Part shown: in pieces, positions 6,681-32,814 of the stretch
How the letters are laid out: each line of letters starts with the position of its first letter
Position numbering within the stretch: position 1 is the first letter of the stretch
Assembly: GCA_902564245.1 (NCBI GenBank)
Contig: CACFAF010000010.1
Location: 1-34,382 of the forward strand
Length of the DNA: 34,382 nt
From: an uncultured Pelagibacteraceae bacterium
GTDB taxonomy: Bacteria; Pseudomonadota; Alphaproteobacteria; Pelagibacterales; Pelagibacteraceae
Reading direction: 5' to 3'
Made by a program: the position numbers and the translations under genes
Notes under the pieces: model-generated
The model's database searches: none
What the model was told of the DNA's origin: nothing
Seen by the model: the letters and a program-made list of their open reading frames with translations, nothing else

Positions 6681-7795
6681 TATTGAACTACCTCTAGAGG
6701 TGAAATATATTTATGACCAAAAACATCTGCTACTGCTTTATACGTAACATTTCCTTTATAAACATTTAAGCCAGCTAAAAAATTATGATCTTCATTTAAT
6801 GCTTTACGATAACCATCTTTTGCTAACTTTGATAAAAAAGGTAACGTCGCTTTATTTAGTGCTATAGTAGAAGTTCTTGGTACTCCACCAGGCATATTAG
6901 CAACACAATAATGAACAACATCATCAACAATGTAGGTTGGTTCTGCATGGGTTGTAGGTTTACTTGTTTCTACACAACCTCCTTGGTCTATAGCTACATC
7001 AACTATAACTGAACCTCTTTTCATTTTTTTTAGCATTTCTTTAGTAATTAATTTTGGTGCTTCAGCACCAGGTATTAAAACTCCTCCAACTAATAAATCA
7101 CATTTTGTTAACAAATTTTCTAAATCAGCTTTATCAGTATGAATTGGATTAATTTTATCTCCAAAAATTTTAACTAATTGTTTTAATCTCTCTTCTGATT
7201 TATCTAATATACTTACATTAGCTCTCATACCAGTAGCTATAATTGCCGCATTTTCTCCCACTACACCACCTCCTAAAATCACGACATTTCCTGGTTCAAC
7301 TCCTGGAGCGCCTCCTAATAAAAGACCTCTTCCTCTCTGATTTTTTTCCAAACAATGTGCTCCAGCTTGCACAGACATTCTTCCAGCAACTGCACTCATA
7401 GGTGCTAACAATGGAAGTCTGCCAATATTGTCTGTAACTGTTTCATAAGCAATGCAAATAGATTTTGTATCTATCAATCCTTGTGTTAGTTCTTTTGCAG
7501 CTGCTAAATGTAAATATGTAAAAACAATTTGATTTTCTTTTATCATTTTTACTTCATTTGCTAGAGGTTCTTTAACTTTAACTATGATCTCTGCATCATT
7601 GAAAATATCTTCAGCTTTTTCGACTATTTTTGCTCCAGCATCTATATATTGTTCGTTATAAAATCCTGCTTCAAAGCCACCATTATTTTCTACCAAAACT
7701 TGATGTCCATTTGAATTTAAAATTTTAACACTTTCGGGAGTTAAACCTATCCTGTTTTCTTGAGGTTTTATTTCTTTAGGAACACCTATTTTCAT
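6680..7795 (-). CDS. ald: Alanine dehydrogenase
   Basis: 371 residues, the usual length. It starts MKIGVPKEIKPQENRIGLTP, the family N-terminus. FTYLHLAAAKELT near residue 95 has the substrate-binding histidine region. VILGGGVVGENAA near 173 is the NAD Rossmann motif, and AHCLEKNQRGRGLLLGGAPGV is the conserved pre-Rossmann segment. It interconverts alanine and pyruvate with NAD and releases ammonium. Beside a pyruvate-dependent taurine aminotransferase (34 bp upstream, same strand), its job is most likely to regenerate pyruvate from alanine, the known Tpa/Ald pairing in taurine dissimilation. It is translationally coupled to the SET gene. Confidence 0.95.
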   Translation of the reverse strand: MKIGVPKEIKPQENRIGLTPESVKILNSNGHQVLVENNGGFEAGFYNEQYIDAGAKIVEKAEDIFNDAEIIVKVKEPLANEVKMIKENQIVFTYLHLAAAKELTQGLIDTKSICIAYETVTDNIGRLPLLAPMSAVAGRMSVQAGAHCLEKNQRGRGLLLGGAPGVEPGNVVILGGGVVGENAAIIATGMRANVSILDKSEERLKQLVKIFGDKINPIHTDKADLENLLTKCDLLVGGVLIPGAEAPKLITKEMLKKMKRGSVIVDVAIDQGGCVETSKPTTHAEPTYIVDDVVHYCVANMPGGVPRTSTIALNKATLPFLSKLAKDGYRKALNEDHNFLAGLNVYKGNVTYKAVADVFGHKYISPLEVVQ

Positions 7796-7829
7796 ATATC
7801 CGCAGTTAAATTATAATTGATGAAATTTA

Positions 7830-9176
7830 CTAATTCTTAAGATTTTTTTGATAATTAGAAATTCCAGTCCTTAATTTATCAATTATTTCATCAATATGTT
7901 TTTTTTCACAGATGAATTGTGGTGCTATAATTAAGCAATCACCAGTTGCTTTAAAATTAACACCGGCTTTATAGCACGACTTAAAACATTCATAGCCTGC
8001 TTTGCCTGGTTTTACATTCATCTTCATGTCTATCCCTCCCATTAATCCATAACCTCTAATATTCTCCACTGAGTCTAAATCTTTTAATGAAAATAAACCT
8101 TTTTGAAAATACGAAACCATTCCTTTGACTTTATTAAATATATCTTCTTTTTCAAAAATTTCTTGTACCGCTAAAGCAGCTGCAACTGAAACAGGGATTC
8201 CTGAATAAGTATAACCATGAAATAATTCTACAGCTCCTTTAGGAGAAGCGTCCATTACAGCATCATAAATTTCATCTTTACAAGCAACTACTCCCATAGG
8301 AACAACTCCATTAGTTGTAGCTTTTGCCATTGTCATCATATCAGGTTCTACACCAAACTCTTGTGAAGCAAATGTGGAACCCATTCTTCCCCAACCTGTT
8401 ATCACTTCATCAAAAATTAATAAAATTCCATGCTTAGTACAAATTTCTCTAAGTTTTTGCAAATATCCTTTTGGAGGAACTAAAACTCCTGTTGAACCTG
8501 AAACTGGCTCAACAATACACGCTGCTATATTTTCAGCTCCAAAATTTGTACATATTCTTTCAAGGTCATTTGCCAATTCTGCTCCTGTCTCAGGTTGGCC
8601 ACTTACAAACTTATGTTCTTGTAAATGAGTGTGTCTCATATGTTGTACACCTGGCATTAAAATACTTGCAAAAGTTTTTACGTTATTAACCATACCTCCA
8701 ATTGAAACGCATCCTATATTCATTCCATGGTATGCTCTTTCTCTACCTACAAATCTAAATCTTTGTCCATTACCTTTTGCTTTGTGATAAGCCACAGCTA
8801 TTTTAATTGCAGTTTCTACTGCAGTAGATCCACAGATTGTGTAAAAAATTTTATTTAAGTCTCCTGGAGTGTGTTTAGAAATTTTTGTAGCTAATTCAAA
8901 TGATCCTCCAAAACCTTGTTGAAAGGGCTGACAGTAATCTAATGTTTCTAACTGTTTTGTTACTGCTTCAGTTATTTCTCTTCTTCCATGACCTAGAGGA
9001 TTACAGAATAACCCTGAACTACCATCGATCATTGTTTTACCTTCGTGATTTTTTAGATAAACACCATTCGCTTCAGTAATTAATCTTGGATTTTCTTTAA
9101 AATCTTTATTCGATGTAAACGGCATCCAATGTTCGTTTAGTGAATTTGGAACCGTTGTTCTATTTTCCGAGCTCAT
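7830..9176 (-). CDS. tpa: Taurine-pyruvate (omega-amino acid) aminotransferase
   Basis: 448 residues, a class III PLP aminotransferase. HWMPFTSNKDFKENPR at 16-31 is the N-terminal motif shared by omega-amino acid:pyruvate transaminases. LLIFDEVITGWGR at 252-264 holds the PLP-ring aspartate, and MTMAKATTNG has the Schiff-base lysine at about 285. The sequence alone could equally fit beta-alanine:pyruvate aminotransferase. The taurine call rests on context: it is divergent from tauABC and directly upstream of ald. The product would be sulfoacetaldehyde plus alanine. It heads the minus-strand operon. There is no clear Shine-Dalgarno before the ATG, as for several genes here. Confidence 0.85.
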   Translation of the reverse strand: MSSENRTTVPNSLNEHWMPFTSNKDFKENPRLITEANGVYLKNHEGKTMIDGSSGLFCNPLGHGRREITEAVTKQLETLDYCQPFQQGFGGSFELATKISKHTPGDLNKIFYTICGSTAVETAIKIAVAYHKAKGNGQRFRFVGRERAYHGMNIGCVSIGGMVNNVKTFASILMPGVQHMRHTHLQEHKFVSGQPETGAELANDLERICTNFGAENIAACIVEPVSGSTGVLVPPKGYLQKLREICTKHGILLIFDEVITGWGRMGSTFASQEFGVEPDMMTMAKATTNGVVPMGVVACKDEIYDAVMDASPKGAVELFHGYTYSGIPVSVAAALAVQEIFEKEDIFNKVKGMVSYFQKGLFSLKDLDSVENIRGYGLMGGIDMKMNVKPGKAGYECFKSCYKAGVNFKATGDCLIIAPQFICEKKHIDEIIDKLRTGISNYQKNLKN

Positions 9177-21322: not shown

Positions 21323-21985
21323 TTATTTATTTGGATCTGGCACCTTACGTAAATAAGGTTTTATTGTTTCCCATCCGTCTGGATATATTTTTTTTGCTTC
21401 CTCGTTAGTAACTTTTGGAACAATAATAACGTCTTCTCCTGGCTGCCAATCTGCTGGAGTTGCAATTTTATGTTTTGCTGTACGTTGCATTGAATCTATT
21501 GTTCTTAATATTTCATTAAAATTACGTCCAGTCGTCATCGGATAAGTTAAAAATAATCCAATTCTTTTATCAGGTCTGACAATATAAACTGTTCTTACTG
21601 TCTCATTATCAACAGCAGTTCTACCCATTGATGTTGTTCCAGCATCGCCTTCCAACATGTTATAAAGCTTTGCAACCTCTAATTTTTCATCTGCTATAAT
21701 TGGATAATTTGGTTTTAGACCGCATACATCTTTGATGTCTTCTAACCATTTTACATGATCTGAAACAGGATCTACGCTTAAACCCATAACTTTAACATTT
21801 CTTTTTTCAAACTCTGGTTTCATTTTAGCTAATGCACCTAATTCTGTAGTACAGACTGGTGTAAAATCTTTTGGATGTGAAAACAATACGCCCCAACTGT
21901 CTCCTAGCCATTCATGAAAAGATAATTTTCCTTCTGAAGTATCAGCAGTAAAGTCAGGTGCTAAACTATTTATTTTTAATGTCAT
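21323..21985 (-). CDS. 1-Cys peroxiredoxin (Prx6 group)
   Basis: 220 residues, the length of Prx6 proteins with the extended C-terminal dimer region. The peroxidatic cysteine is C45 in FTPVCTTELG; there is another cysteine at 88 (KDVCGL), but no resolving cysteine in the 2-Cys position. The PGEDVIIVP tail is typical. It reduces peroxides, with thiol or glutathione as reductant. AGGGAGA just before the ATG is a clear ribosome site. It leads a two-gene unit with the methyltransferase and is divergent from the persulfide-dioxygenase-like gene. Confidence 0.92.
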   Translation of the reverse strand: MTLKINSLAPDFTADTSEGKLSFHEWLGDSWGVLFSHPKDFTPVCTTELGALAKMKPEFEKRNVKVMGLSVDPVSDHVKWLEDIKDVCGLKPNYPIIADEKLEVAKLYNMLEGDAGTTSMGRTAVDNETVRTVYIVRPDKRIGLFLTYPMTTGRNFNEILRTIDSMQRTAKHKIATPADWQPGEDVIIVPKVTNEEAKKIYPDGWETIKPYLRKVPDPNK

Positions 21986-22079: not shown

Positions 22080-22778
22080 ATGATTTTTAATCAATTTTTT
22101 GACGATAAATCTTCAACCTACACTTACATTTTATCTAGTGGCAAAGGTAGAGAGGCATTAATCATTGATCCTGTAATAGAAAACACAAAAGAGTATTTAA
22201 CTTTATTAAATAATTTAGAACTAAAATTAGTAAAAGTAATTGATACACATATACATGCTGATCACATTTCAGCGTTAAATGAATTAAATAAACAAACTAA
22301 TTGTAAAAGAATAATGGGAGAAAAGTCTGAGTGTGAAGTAATAGATATTAAAGTTAAGGATAATGAAAAAATTAAAATAGAAAATATTGAGCTAACCTCA
22401 ATCTATACGCCCGGTCATACTCAATGTTCATATAGTTTCTTAATGAATGATAGAGTTTTTACTGGAGATACTCTATTAATTAACGGTTCAGGTAGAACAG
22501 ATTTTCAAGGCGGAAGTGCTTTGGAGCAGTATGATTCTATTTTTAATAAATTACTAAAATTACCTGAAGATACACTTGTTTATCCAGCACATGATTATAA
22601 TAAAAAAAAATTTTCTACTATTGGAAAAGAAAAAGAGAATAATCCAAGACTTCAAGTTAAATCTGCTGAAGAGTATATCGAGATTATGAATAATCTTAAT
22701 TTAGCAAACCCAAAAATGATGGATATTGCTGTCCCTGCAAATAAAAAGGGTGTTACTGCAGAGCAATTGATTACTTAA
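22080..22778 (+). CDS. Metallo-beta-lactamase-fold hydrolase, persulfide dioxygenase-like
   Basis: About 232 residues from the ATG at 22080. MIFNQFFDDKSSTYTYIL is the normal family start, and the earlier TTG/ATG codons fall in the promoter. THIHADH is the metal motif HxHxDH, PGHTQCS gives the next histidine, and FTGDTLLINGSGRTDFQGG is the ETHE1/persulfide-dioxygenase segment that differs from glyoxalase II. YPAHDYN provides the last histidine. Persulfide dioxygenases oxidise glutathione persulfide to sulfite using one iron. It sits before the cysteine-rich peptide and cysE-cysK, which fits a sulfur role. Glyoxalase-II-like activity remains an alternative. Confidence 0.85.
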   Translation: MIFNQFFDDKSSTYTYILSSGKGREALIIDPVIENTKEYLTLLNNLELKLVKVIDTHIHADHISALNELNKQTNCKRIMGEKSECEVIDIKVKDNEKIKIENIELTSIYTPGHTQCSYSFLMNDRVFTGDTLLINGSGRTDFQGGSALEQYDSIFNKLLKLPEDTLVYPAHDYNKKKFSTIGKEKENNPRLQVKSAEEYIEIMNNLNLANPKMMDIAVPANKKGVTAEQLIT

Positions 22779-22857
22779 TTTAGTTGATAATTGTTCTCAA
22801 TTTAAATGTTTAAATAAAGTATTGTTTTTTAAATAATTAGTAACTATATATAATTCT

Positions 22858-22992
22858 ATGACATGCAATAATAAATCTTGTAATTGTAAAAACTGCGATC
22901 CAAAAAAATGTAAATGCAGTTCTGATGGCAATTGTGCGTGTAATTCTTGTAAATGTTCACCTAATTCAACTAATTGTTGTTGTAACAATTAA
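22858..22992 (+). CDS. Metallothionein-like cysteine-rich small protein
   Basis: 44 residues from the ATG at 22858 to TAA at 22990-22992, in a gap left by larger genes. It has 13 cysteines (about 30%) at 3, 8, 10, 13, 18, 20, 26, 28, 31, 33 and 40-42, including CNC, CKC, CAC and CKC pairs and a final CCC. The rest is small, polar or lysine, with no aromatic residue. This is the composition and C-x-C spacing of metallothioneins, which bind Zn, Cu or Cd in thiolate clusters. It lacks the histidines typical of bacterial SmtA. It sits between the persulfide-dioxygenase-like gene and cysE, where cysteine is made. No Shine-Dalgarno is visible. I know no named family for it. Confidence 0.72.
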   Translation: MTCNNKSCNCKNCDPKKCKCSSDGNCACNSCKCSPNSTNCCCNN

Positions 22993-23020
22993 TTGAATAT
23001 TTAAAAATATTTAAATAATC

Positions 23021-23590
23021 ATGAACAGTTTTTTAGAGTCAATAATTAAAAGAGATCCCGCAGCAAAATCAAAAATAAGTTTGATTTTAACTTATCCGGG
23101 AGTTAAGGCTATTTTTTTTCATAAAATAGCTAATTTTTTTTCTCTTGCTAAATTTGATTTGATAGCAAGAGTTATTTCTCAATTTTCAAGATTCTTAACT
23201 GGTATTGAAATTCACCCTAAAGCAAAAATTGGAAAAAATTTATTTATTGATCATGGTATGGGGGTTGTGATTGGTGAAACTTCAGAAATTGGAGACAATG
23301 TTACAATTTATCATATGGTCACTCTGGGTGGTATTTCTCCTAGTATAAATTCAAACGAACAGAGAAATACTAAAAGACATCCAACTTTAAAAAATAATGT
23401 CGTTGTAGGTTCTGGTGCACAAATATTAGGACCAATAATTGTTGGAGAAAATGCTAAAATTGGAGCTAATGCTGTTGTAACAAAAAATGTTCCTGAAAAA
23501 GCAGTAATGGTTGGAATTCCTGCAAAAAATGTTGGAACAGCAACAGATGAGTTTAAACCTTATGGTATTTCTAATGGAGATAATCAATGA
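23021..23590 (+). CDS. cysE: Serine O-acetyltransferase
   Basis: 189 residues, the short (EpsC-type) form. The N-terminus is helical ([11 protein letters not shown], then [15 protein letters not shown]). A left-handed hexapeptide helix follows, with [20 protein letters not shown] and the catalytic-type histidines in FIDHG and IYHMVTLGG, then [20 protein letters not shown]. It makes O-acetylserine from serine and acetyl-CoA, the first step of cysteine synthesis. Its last bases overlap the cysK start (ATGA), so CysE and CysK are coupled and can form the cysteine synthase complex. The cysteine-rich peptide gene lies 28 bp upstream. Confidence 0.93.
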
Positions 23591-24588
23591 AAGATACACA
23601 AAATAATTTTATAGAAGGAATTGGAAATACTCCGTTAATAAAACTTAAAGCAGCATCAGAAATAACTGGATGTAATATCTTTGGGAAAGCAGAATATCTT
23701 AATCCTGGTGGTTCAGTAAAAGATAGAGCAGCCCTTGCTTTAATTAAAGATGCACAAGAAAAAAAATTAATTTCAAAAGGTGGAATAATAGTTGAAGGAA
23801 CTGCTGGAAATACAGGAATTGGGTTATGTTTAATTGGAAACTCAATTGGTTATAAAACTATAATTGTAATGAACGATAATCAAACACAAGAAAAGAAAGA
23901 TATGCTTAAAAATATTGGAGCTGATTTAAGATTAGTGCCGCCTAAACCATACAAAGATGATGGCAATTATGTAAAAGTTGCAGGAAGATTAGCTGATGAA
24001 TTAAAAAGTTCAAATAATTACGGAGTAGTTTGGGCCAATCAATTTGATAATACCGCAAATGCGAAAGGTCATTATGAAACAACAGGTCCAGAAATATGGA
24101 AACAAACAGATGGTAAAATTGATGGTTTTGTATGTTCTTCAGGTACAGGAGGAACTATTGGAGGTGTAAGTAGTTATTTAAAAGAAAAGAACAAAGATAT
24201 TAAAATTTATTTATCAGATCCAACAGGATCTTCTCTTTATAGTTATATAACAAATGGTGAATTAAAAAGTGAAGGCGGATCAATCACAGAAGGAATTGGG
24301 TCGAGCAGAGTAACAGCAAATTTTGCTAAAGCTAAAATAGATGGGGCATTTTCAATTAGTGACAAAGAATCTTTGCCAATTCTTTATGATTTAATTCAAA
24401 ACGAGGGATTAAGTTTGGGCACTAGTTGTGGAGTTAACATAGCAGGAGCAATTAGGCTAGGAAAAGAACTTGGTCCTGGAAAAACAATTGTTACAATTCT
24501 TTGCGATAAATCAGATAAATACAACTCAAAGATGTTTAACAAATCATTTTTAAAAGAAAAAAACTTACCAATCCCTAGCTGGTTATAA
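23587..24588 (+). CDS. cysK: Cysteine synthase
   Basis: 333 residues, a fold type II PLP enzyme. The Schiff-base lysine is K45 in [23 protein letters not shown] near 69-79 is the substrate loop in the form common in alphaproteobacteria, and [10 protein letters not shown] near 180 is the PLP phosphate loop. It forms cysteine from O-acetylserine and sulfide. The ATG overlaps the cysE stop by 4 bp. The C-terminus ends with an isoleucine-free PIPSWL, unlike the classic CysK tail; interaction with CysE therefore may rely on other residues. Sulfide would have to come from outside or from reduced organic sulfur, as no sulfate-reduction gene is nearby. Confidence 0.93.
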
Positions 24589-28668: not shown

Positions 28669-29397
28669 TTATATTCTAAGAATATCACTCTTAAATTTTG
28701 AATACAAAATATTAGAATAATTATTCATATTTTTCATATTTATTTGTGCTTCATTGTTAAACTTTTCAAGTGCATTTGTGCCTAATTGTTTTTCCAAAGC
28801 TGACTTATATTCTGGAACACACCCCCATTCACTTACAGTCGTATCTTTAACTTCTATATGAAATTGAATTCCATAAGCATGATTTTGATATTTAAAAATC
28901 TGATATTTGGTTTCAGGAGAAGATGCTAAAAGAGTTACATTATCATTACTTTCTAAACCTTGAACTTCATAAGAGTGCCACTGTAAAGACGTAATATTTT
29001 CTGGAAAATTTGAAAATAAAGGATCGCTATTTTTATTTTGAGAAAAATTAATATTTAACATTCCTATTTCTGGATTGTTCGATTTAACAACCTTTCCTCC
29101 AATAACTTCTCCTAGAAGTTGACATCCCAGGCAAAAACCTAAATACGGTTTCTTTAAATCAACTACAAATTCTTTAATTTTTTTTTTTTCATCAATTAAC
29201 CATGAATATTCTTTTTCCATCCAAGTATCCATAGGTCCACCCATACAAAACATAGCATCAAATTTTGAAAGATCTTTTGGAATTTTTTCTCCTTCATCTA
29301 GTTCTATTGTTGTTAGCTCAGCTTTATCTTTGATCATTAAATCTTTAATATAACCAGGATCTTCAATTTTAATATGCTGTAAGATTAGTATTTTCAT
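28669..29397 (-). CDS. Class I glutamine amidotransferase-like protein
   Basis: 242 residues. YLGFCLGCQLLGE at 85-97 is the nucleophile elbow with C89, and AYGIQFHIEVKD near 178-189 gives the catalytic histidine and glutamate. FDAMFCMGGPMDTW near 46-59 is the usual N-terminal loop (GGPM). Stand-alone members like this hydrolyse gamma-glutamyl bonds or donate ammonia to a partner. No synthase partner is next to it; the nearest neighbours are a HisN-like phosphatase and an AhpD-like protein. It starts 1 bp after the phosphatase stop. Substrate unknown. Confidence 0.88.
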   Translation of the reverse strand: MKILILQHIKIEDPGYIKDLMIKDKAELTTIELDEGEKIPKDLSKFDAMFCMGGPMDTWMEKEYSWLIDEKKKIKEFVVDLKKPYLGFCLGCQLLGEVIGGKVVKSNNPEIGMLNINFSQNKNSDPLFSNFPENITSLQWHSYEVQGLESNDNVTLLASSPETKYQIFKYQNHAYGIQFHIEVKDTTVSEWGCVPEYKSALEKQLGTNALEKFNNEAQINMKNMNNYSNILYSKFKSDILRI

Positions 29398-29398
29398 T

Positions 29399-30202
29399 TT
29401 AAAGCGCAGGCTTTAAAAGTTTTAACATTTTTTTATGTATATTTCTATTCGCAGAAAATAAAATATTACCTGCTAACTTCGCATCTTTATTCTTCCATGT
29501 AGAACCAATCCCACCTGCAGCTGCAATTATAGGAATTAAAGCATGAACATCCCATATCTTATTTTGACATTGTATAACTACATCTATTTTACCTTCACAA
29601 AGATGAGCATAACTTAATGCGTCAAAACATGGAAATTGCATAAGTTTTAGAACTTTAGGAATTTTACTTTGTTTTTTTAATGATAACCAACCATGGAAAG
29701 CTCCAGCTACCTTAGCTTTTTTTAAAGTAGTTTTTTTATTCACTGATAATTTTTTTTTTCTTCCATTTTCTACTACGTAAGCGCTTTTTGCTGAGATATT
29801 AAAATAGTACTTATTTAATTTTGGAAAGTTGGCTAAACCAAAAATTGGATTTCCTTTATAAGTTAAAGCTACTAAATTACTCCATGATGGATTGCCTATT
29901 ACAAATGATCTAGTTCCGTCTATTGGATCAATTACCCATGCAAAATCACTTTTAGTTTTTTTTCGTCCGTATTCTTCACCAATAATTTCATGATCTGGAA
30001 ATTTTTTTTGAATTTTAGATCTTATGAACTTTTCAAAAGCTTTGTCAGCTGTTGTAACAGGATCATAACCTTTGCCCTTTAATTTATTATCTACTTTAAA
30101 TGGCTTGTTGAGCTTAGAGTAGTAATATTTTGTCAAATCTTTAGCTAACTTGTTTAAAAAATTAGCAAAAAATCTCATTTTTTTTGTATTTAATTCAGTC
30201 AT
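29399..30202 (-). CDS. Inositol-monophosphatase family phosphatase, HisN-type
   Basis: 267 residues. Metal-site motifs are IIGEEYG near 74-80, WVIDPIDGTRSFVIGNPSW near 90-108 and IWDVHALIPIIAAAGG near 216-231. The DPVTTADKAFEKFIR start and the DGTRSF form are those of histidinol-phosphatase HisN rather than SuhB or CysQ. HisN dephosphorylates histidinol phosphate in histidine synthesis with Mg2+. No other his gene is adjacent, so the assignment is by motif only. It is lysine-rich at both ends and leads the three-gene minus unit. Confidence 0.82.
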   Translation of the reverse strand: MTELNTKKMRFFANFLNKLAKDLTKYYYSKLNKPFKVDNKLKGKGYDPVTTADKAFEKFIRSKIQKKFPDHEIIGEEYGRKKTKSDFAWVIDPIDGTRSFVIGNPSWSNLVALTYKGNPIFGLANFPKLNKYYFNISAKSAYVVENGRKKKLSVNKKTTLKKAKVAGAFHGWLSLKKQSKIPKVLKLMQFPCFDALSYAHLCEGKIDVVIQCQNKIWDVHALIPIIAAAGGIGSTWKNKDAKLAGNILFSANRNIHKKMLKLLKPAL

Positions 30203-32232: not shown

Positions 32233-32814
32233 TTAGGTTAACCTGTTTATTTTCTCTTCAGCTTTTTTAATTGAACCTTCATAATCTAAAGCCATTTGAT
32301 CTGCGGCGATAATATCTATTTTTTTAATTCCAAAGAAATTAAGAACATGAATTAACCAAGGTGTAAGAAAATCTTCTTTGCTATGGACTTTAGTGCCTCC
32401 TGAAGTGATAACAAGATAAACATGTTTATCTTTTAAAAGTCCCACCCTATTACCGTCTTTAGTATATTCAAAAGTTTCTTTAACTCTAGCGGCTAAATCA
32501 GACCACGCCTTTAATGTTGCAGGTGGTCCAAAATTATATATTGGTGCTGAAATTATTATTACATCACTTTCTTTTAATTCAACGACAAGTTTATCAGATA
32601 ATTCAAACATCTTTTTATGTTCTGAAGTTTGTTCTTTCTCAGGTATTTTCATTCCTGACTCTGTCAGACCTGAAACAAAAAGCATTTCATCATCTAGGTC
32701 TCTGTAGATAATTTCATCTCCTATTTTTTTAATACGGTTTAATAATTTTTTTGCGAGCTCTCTTGAGGTAGAACCCTCTTTTCTTGCGCTTGAGTCTATT
32801 TGATAAATTTTCAT
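32233..32814 (-). CDS. FMN-dependent NADH oxidoreductase (AzoR-like flavodoxin fold)
   Basis: 193 residues. IDSSARKEGSTSRELAKKLL at 6-25 is the FMN phosphate loop, APIYNFGPPATLKAWSDLAA near 90-109 is the AzoR FMN-ring segment, and FEYTKDGNRVGLLKDKHVYL follows as in the family. These dimeric enzymes reduce quinones or azo compounds with NADH. It is next to CcdA on the same strand but with an 18 bp gap. It ends 2 bp from the convergent EamA gene; AGGTTAACCT at 32235-32244 is part of its last codons. Confidence 0.9.
   Translation of the reverse strand: MKIYQIDSSARKEGSTSRELAKKLLNRIKKIGDEIIYRDLDDEMLFVSGLTESGMKIPEKEQTSEHKKMFELSDKLVVELKESDVIIISAPIYNFGPPATLKAWSDLAARVKETFEYTKDGNRVGLLKDKHVYLVITSGGTKVHSKEDFLTPWLIHVLNFFGIKKIDIIAADQMALDYEGSIKKAEEKINRLT

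Follow-up and report, generated by a model that had tools for sequence, protein, structure and literature searches.

A conserved, unnamed metallothionein-like gene ahead of cysE in SAR11 bacteria, with an RNA stem-loop at its 3' end

Here we describe a cysteine-rich gene that stands directly before cysE in Pelagibacteraceae (SAR11) and belongs to an unnamed family of proteins of 36-44 residues, maintained by selection at the protein level and preceded by a conserved promoter-like motif. In addition, an RNA stem-loop over its terminal Cys-Cys-Cys codons and stop codon, reported here for the first time, is supported by folding, by covariation and by control genes at the same loci. From these data we infer that the gene is translated, that its product binds metal, that it is co-transcribed with cysE and that the hairpin affects cysE. 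As such, we lean, with somewhat more belief than doubt, to a translated metallothionein-like thiolate protein that would head a leaderless cysE-cysK mRNA and whose junction hairpin would tune cysE.

Results

A 13-cysteine reading frame between an MBL-fold gene and cysE

The window, that is, the whole stretch of DNA analysed (34,382 nt), belongs to an incomplete genome of 1.02 Mb in 38 contigs. Around the gene it holds the following features.

22080..22778, + strand: MBL-fold hydrolase, possible persulfide dioxygenase or GloB-like, conserved upstream neighbour (PF00753, E 1.6e-18)
22822..22827, + strand: putative -35 element (TTGTTT), its TTG at 87-98% per base in 93 distinct upstream regions
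22845..22850, + strand: putative -10 element (TATATA), 7 nt before ATG, its TATAT at 91-96% per position in 93 distinct upstream regions
22858..22992, + strand: gene of the 44-aa, 13-Cys metallothionein-like small protein (window translation, orthologues, codon-level conservation)
22964..22998, + strand: RNA stem-loop over the CCC (Cys-Cys-Cys) codons and stop, with two stems, 15 pairs and a 3-nt loop (fold, covariation, control genes)
22993..23020, + strand: AT-rich gap to cysE, 28 nt (window sequence, homologous gaps)
23021..23590, + strand: cysE, serine O-acetyltransferase of EpsC/CysE type (NF041874, 223 bits, cut-off 150; TIGR01172, 218 bits, cut-off 210.65)
23587..24588, + strand: cysteine synthase of cysK/cysM type, its start overlapping the cysE stop (NF007989, 516 bits, cut-off 387)

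Positions 22858-22992 (+) translate to MTCNNKSCNCKNCDPKKCKCSSDGNCACNSCKCSPNSTNCCCNN followed by a TAA stop, which bears out the original prediction of a 44-residue frame with 13 Cys and four C-x-C pairs before cysE. The CCC that had been placed at the very end of the protein is present, but two Asn residues separate it from TAA. The gene starts 79 nt past the end of the MBL-fold gene, and cysE follows 28 nt further downstream. The upstream gene had been called a persulfide dioxygenase; it is of the MBL fold (PF00753) and that function is plausible, but its product (22080-22778) falls under the NCBIfam cut-offs for GloB and for the sulfur dioxygenase Blh; this gene is probably a separate transcription unit from the Cys-rich gene. 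The 44-aa gene is overlapped by a 63-aa antisense frame (22797-22988, -) with much Leu, Gln and His, which seems to be a side effect of the Cys and Asn codons that it lies opposite. In 150 first-order Markov sequences of the window's length and composition, no open frame had more than 8 Cys in any 44-residue stretch, compared with a maximum of 13 in the window, in agreement with the earlier judgement that the frame is too regular for chance.

An unnamed family with the marks of metallothioneins

Throughout the family 11-13 Cys are found in 36-44 aa (28-33%), with conserved spacing and C-x-C motifs, and the members thus share the small size, the Cys content (~20-30% in the class), the C-x-C motifs and the conserved spacing of metallothioneins. 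For the window protein Pfam gave no match up to E 1, and for two other members none up to E 10, while searches of NCBIfam, PHROGs and PDB returned no relative, the PDB matches including no metallothionein. The description of the protein as metallothionein-like and without a named family therefore stands, whereas the lack of His, which had also been pointed out, holds for the window protein and most relatives but not for the 36-aa form, in which His7 is conserved. That form has 12 Cys, as do most of the 37-38 aa forms; the commonest form has 39 aa and 11 Cys, and the 44-aa window form carries one extra C-x-C loop relative to the family. The AlphaFold model was uninformative (no fold, pLDDT 55). 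Readings as a zinc finger and as a RiPP precursor were set aside, the former for its lack of CxxC pairs and the latter for the lack of modification enzymes nearby.

Searches with the protein and with profiles brought up relatives within the genus and in one sister genus, with a strong match (E below 1e-5) in 35 of 297 genomes of an order-level sample, and a motif scan of genome contigs added at least about 100 further Pelagibacteraceae loci. Among the matches listed, the relatives from the motif scan were labelled Pelagibacteraceae (SAR11) nearly throughout and came mainly from single-cell genomes. The orthologue search that had been proposed beforehand as a test thus yielded orthologues in many related genomes, with open frames and conserved cysteines. 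Samples at class and phylum level (other Proteobacteria) gave weak partial matches at most, and plasmids gave nothing more than weak matches inside unrelated genes. Matches of the genome scan outside SAR11 were recognised by inspection as out-of-pattern frames and rejected. One contig labelled uncultured Polaribacter (L200) carries a Pelagibacter-type cysE together with the Cys-rich gene and falls within SAR11 on the cysE tree; its label is probably due to wrong binning.

Fixed position and vertical inheritance

Wherever the 3' flank is readable (153 copies), cysE lies 25-38 nt downstream, which substantiates the tie to cysteine synthesis first suggested from the window, and the MBL gene is upstream in every copy with a readable 5' flank, both neighbours being in view for 148 of 157 copies. 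On a cysE tree of 126 rows the presence of the gene amounts to 3 changes, compared with 31 in shuffles, and together with the copies in the sister genus this indicates that the gene is old and vertically inherited. Many Pelagibacter genomes have no such gene, several complete ones among them (e.g. G443), and studies of cultured strains may have missed it because it is absent from the complete genomes examined. Relatives without the gene have short gaps before cysE, with 24-25 nt between the MBL gene and cysE in L287-L288 and a TATATA element directly before cysE in the L229 group.

Selection on the protein

Since the exact-motif scan fixes Cys and Asn positions, the conservation figures were taken from 44 distinct DNA sequences whose recovery did not depend on a Cys/Asn motif. 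In these, nine core Cys out of eleven are present in 44/44 sequences and the other two in 43/44, along with Asn5 (44/44), Asn12 (41/44) and Pro35 (42/44). The CCC near the stop occurs in every unfiltered copy, C3 and C8 are fixed as firmly as CCC, the first Cys equalling the last, and the Cys spacing is exact save in one loop. At the DNA level, TGT and TGC interchange freely at all eleven core Cys codons, third codon positions show about twice the variation of the others, and close pairs give an overall pN/pS of 0.20, with 0.006 at core Cys and 0.35 at the remaining codons. The dN/dS check proposed in advance gave about 0.2 in close pairs and, as Cys, Asn and Pro are fixed or nearly so while the Cys codons vary, the peptide is under selection as a protein. 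Judged by sequence, it has the Cys spacing and the composition of a peptide that binds metal through thiolates.

Promoter-like motif and a probable leaderless mRNA

A generic promoter scan is powerless in such AT-rich DNA. Across the 93 distinct upstream regions, TTG and TATAT are 16-17 nt apart and TATAT ends about 7 nt before ATG. Because the promoter-like motif ends so close to the start codon, a leaderless or nearly leaderless mRNA is expected, with transcription predicted to begin at or beside the A of ATG and probably to run through the gene, cysE and cysK. A Shine-Dalgarno-like motif before cysE was found in 0/91 homologous gaps, and the analysis turned up neither a metal regulator nor a metal-responsive operator. 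Within the 39-aa group (e.g. L213, L004, L010) the gap consists of A and T alone and often contains two ATTTAAAT palindromes about 20 nt apart, which might provide cysE with a second promoter or a binding site.

An RNA stem-loop over the last cysteine codons and the stop

We folded the nine final sense codons together with the stop and the following 15 nt, and compared the result with synonymous-codon shuffles. The window stem-loop reaches -10.5 kcal/mol against a null mean of -5.1 (percentile 0.01), and in 79 regions the mean z is -2.2, with 65% under the 5th percentile, whereas at the same loci cysE, cysK, mbl and prx show no excess at their ends (7-12% under the 5th percentile). The structure is strong in the 39-aa and window forms, clear in the 36-aa form, weak in the 37-aa form and absent from the 38-aa form. 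In an ungapped alignment of 46 sequences a 13-pair structure is 85.6% paired, and 58 cells are changed on both sides, compared with 27.4 in shuffled and at most 23 in slid alignments, although these cells may reflect few independent events. The compensatory switches include U-A/G-U, C-G/A-U and G-C/C-G, and some pair a coding base with a base past the stop. Codon choice close to the stop is also unusual: the last Lys codon is AAG in 38 and AAA in 9 sequences, while Lys34 and Lys7 are nearly all AAA. The stem-loop is followed by no clear U-run, hides no ribosome-binding site and has no match among the known RNA elements of Rfam.

In longer regions general RNA-fold z-scores are weak, and the signal emerges solely with the synonymous-codon null at the stop codon; a huge column-shuffle z from RNAalifold was discarded because shuffling AT-rich columns produces it artificially. 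Elsewhere in the window, a few gene ends also fold better than the null over the stop, at percentile 0.01 or less (29399-30202, 21323-21985, 28669-29397 and 32233-32814, all -). Thus, stop-spanning hairpins are not unique to the Cys-rich gene and may be a junction signal in the streamlined window genome.

Cysteine-rich proteins of similar spacing in marine viruses

A motif scan of IMG/VR gave 48 stretches, most of them coding for Cys-rich proteins of 20-62 aa such as MACENEKCKCENCTCDPCECTENNQCSCPKEQTDE, and a second viral scan without forced Asn again found Asn5 in most genuine cases (contigs L062-L109 and L258-L282, e.g. L072 reverse strand 7519, L066 4206 and L092 reverse strand 10418). The ORFs of these marine viral contigs follow the pattern M-x-C-x-N-P-x-C-x-C-E-N-C-T-C-D-P-C-x-C-T... 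and share with the SAR11 family the N-terminal spacing M-x-C-x-N-x2-C-x-C-x-N-C-x4-C-x-C. However, they range from 20 to 62 aa, have no CCC end, often possess Shine-Dalgarno-like sites of their own and lie away from cysE, several of them in virion gene clusters. The viral examples tested had no PHROG or Pfam match, and named phages gave no relevant match, in searches where low-complexity masking perhaps hides such queries. Two of the viral ORFs adjoin frames that by eye are NifU C-terminal-like or of HesB/IscA type (L072 reverse strand 7526-8059; L066 4832-5167), hinting at a viral metal or Fe-S module. The viral ORFs support the idea that such peptides may work as proteins away from cysE, their likeness to the SAR11 family being one of spacing.

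Discussion

According to the reading we prefer, a mostly Cys-only peptide with 11-13 Cys would wrap around some three to four metal ions of d10 type, Zn(II) or Cu(I) being the likeliest, and would serve to buffer or detoxify them. The four-metal domain of mammalian metallothionein uses eleven thiolates. As the first gene of a leaderless mRNA shared with cysE and cysK, the peptide would be made alongside the enzymes that supply its cysteine. The stem-loop that covers the final Cys codons together with the stop might set the expression passed on to cysE, probably in a translation-dependent manner, namely by being opened by a ribosome on the Cys codons and closing again in free RNA, and a long dwell of the ribosome on the Cys run could favour cysE. 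The stem has no clear U-run and no Shine-Dalgarno site to hide, and its target might be termination, RNA stability or re-initiation alike. A point against the metallothionein reading is that all cellular copies are locked before cysE, as would be the case for a cis-acting leader. Further points against it are the AlphaFold model without a fold, the failure to find a metal regulator or metal-responsive operator and, as regards the hairpin, its weakness in the 37-aa form and absence from the 38-aa form.

The gene and the hairpin, taken as a pair, suggest a joint control of metal buffering and cysteine supply. It is conceivable, albeit with rather more doubt than confidence on our part, that the gene has a dual function as a metallothionein whose Cys-rich end and stem-loop sense the cysteine supply and gate cysE-cysK, by which metal buffering and cysteine synthesis would become one self-adjusting operon in an organism without sulfate reduction.

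The main rival to the metallothionein reading is a pure cysteine-responsive leader peptide (attenuator) that is itself inert, in which Cys-tRNA starvation would make the ribosome stall at CCC, prevent the hairpin from closing and turn cysE-cysK on; we consider this unlikely. The leaderless start, the Cys run near the stop with cysE 25-38 nt downstream and the conserved stem-loop, which coincides with the Cys codons and stop, would all suit such a design, which matches that of the leaderless polycysteine short ORFs of mycobacteria. However, protein-level selection is strong on the eight further Cys from codon 3 onwards, on the distances between them and on Asn5, Asn12 and Pro35; a leader would have no need of it, and Cys3 would stall ribosomes ahead of the hairpin. 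In addition, cysE has no Shine-Dalgarno motif that could be masked (0/91), the stem lacks a canonical U-run and the 38-aa form lacks the hairpin. An attenuator peptide should be unconstrained outside its regulatory codons, but here pN/pS outside Cys is 0.35.

A reservoir of thiols or sulfur, or a persulfide carrier, acting without metal and banking cysteine or sulfane sulfur in cells that have no sulfate reduction, seems to us improbable. Such a role would fit the neighbours in cysteine synthesis and possibly persulfide chemistry, the constant presence of the MBL gene upstream and the missing assimilatory sulfate reduction of SAR11 (PMC5069961). Yet storage would not require an exact C-x-C spacing, a typical feature of metal clusters, one to a few Cys would suffice for a persulfide carrier, and MBL genes are also kept without the Cys-rich gene in other SAR11 genomes. 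Finally, a chance or decaying frame without function, to which the lack of annotation or family match and the many Pelagibacter genomes without the gene might point, is ruled out to near certainty by the simulation (13 Cys in 44 residues against at most 8 in 150 simulated windows) and by orthologue conservation, the frame, cysteines and place being kept in at least about 100 distinct sequences with a dN/dS of about 0.2.

Few cells in the sea are as abundant as SAR11 bacteria, whose genomes are streamlined. They depend on reduced organic sulfur and are without assimilatory sulfate reduction (PMC5069961), which makes a protein of ~30% Cys costly for them, and this protein has nevertheless persisted over long lineages. 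In P. ubique HTCC1062, cysE and cysK are not upregulated under sulfur limitation (PMC5069961). Most detoxification systems were scarce or absent in Pelagibacter in a profile-based survey (PMC4161860), and our search of the literature found no report of a metallothionein in SAR11. If the metal role is true, marine metal quotas would gain an unseen buffer, and if the hairpin acts on cysE, it would represent a new case of cysteine-linked control outside mycobacteria. The viral mini-proteins raise the question of whether phages also use such chelators.

Like SmtA, BmtA and the Pseudomonas metallothioneins, the SAR11 protein is short, Cys-rich, intracellular and furnished with C-x-C pairs, but it has no Pfam match (Metallothio_Pro), another Cys spacing, a CCC end and a length of 36-44 aa; most of its forms are without conserved His ligands, and the family heads a probable cysE-cysK operon. 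The Pseudomonas proteins have a Cys9His cluster, and their genes have no metal-responsive regulator and are apparently in an operon with their neighbours (PMC7387436). With the mycobacterial copper metallothionein MymT the family shares the type of a small bacterial Cys-rich metal chelator (PMC7387436), but no family match, and spacing and context differ, the MymT sequence itself lying outside this comparison.

On the side of regulation, candidate leader peptides with Cys runs ahead of cys operons were predicted earlier (PMC1262725), and in mycobacteria leaderless polycysteine ORFs are cysteine-responsive attenuators, according to the account of Canestrari et al. 2020 given in PMC13236596. The SAR11 gene resembles these ORFs in its predicted leaderless start, in the Cys run near the stop and in the cysteine-biosynthesis gene next to it, and the RNA structure near its Cys run might couple its translation to cysE. 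It departs from them in the conservation of the whole peptide, with 11-13 spaced Cys, in having no ribosome-binding site to mask and in belonging to an unrelated phylum. Set beside both kinds of system, and judged from its sequence, the gene described here is metallothionein-like, conserved and without a name; its genetic setting is new, and the RNA element at its 3' end is supported by the data.
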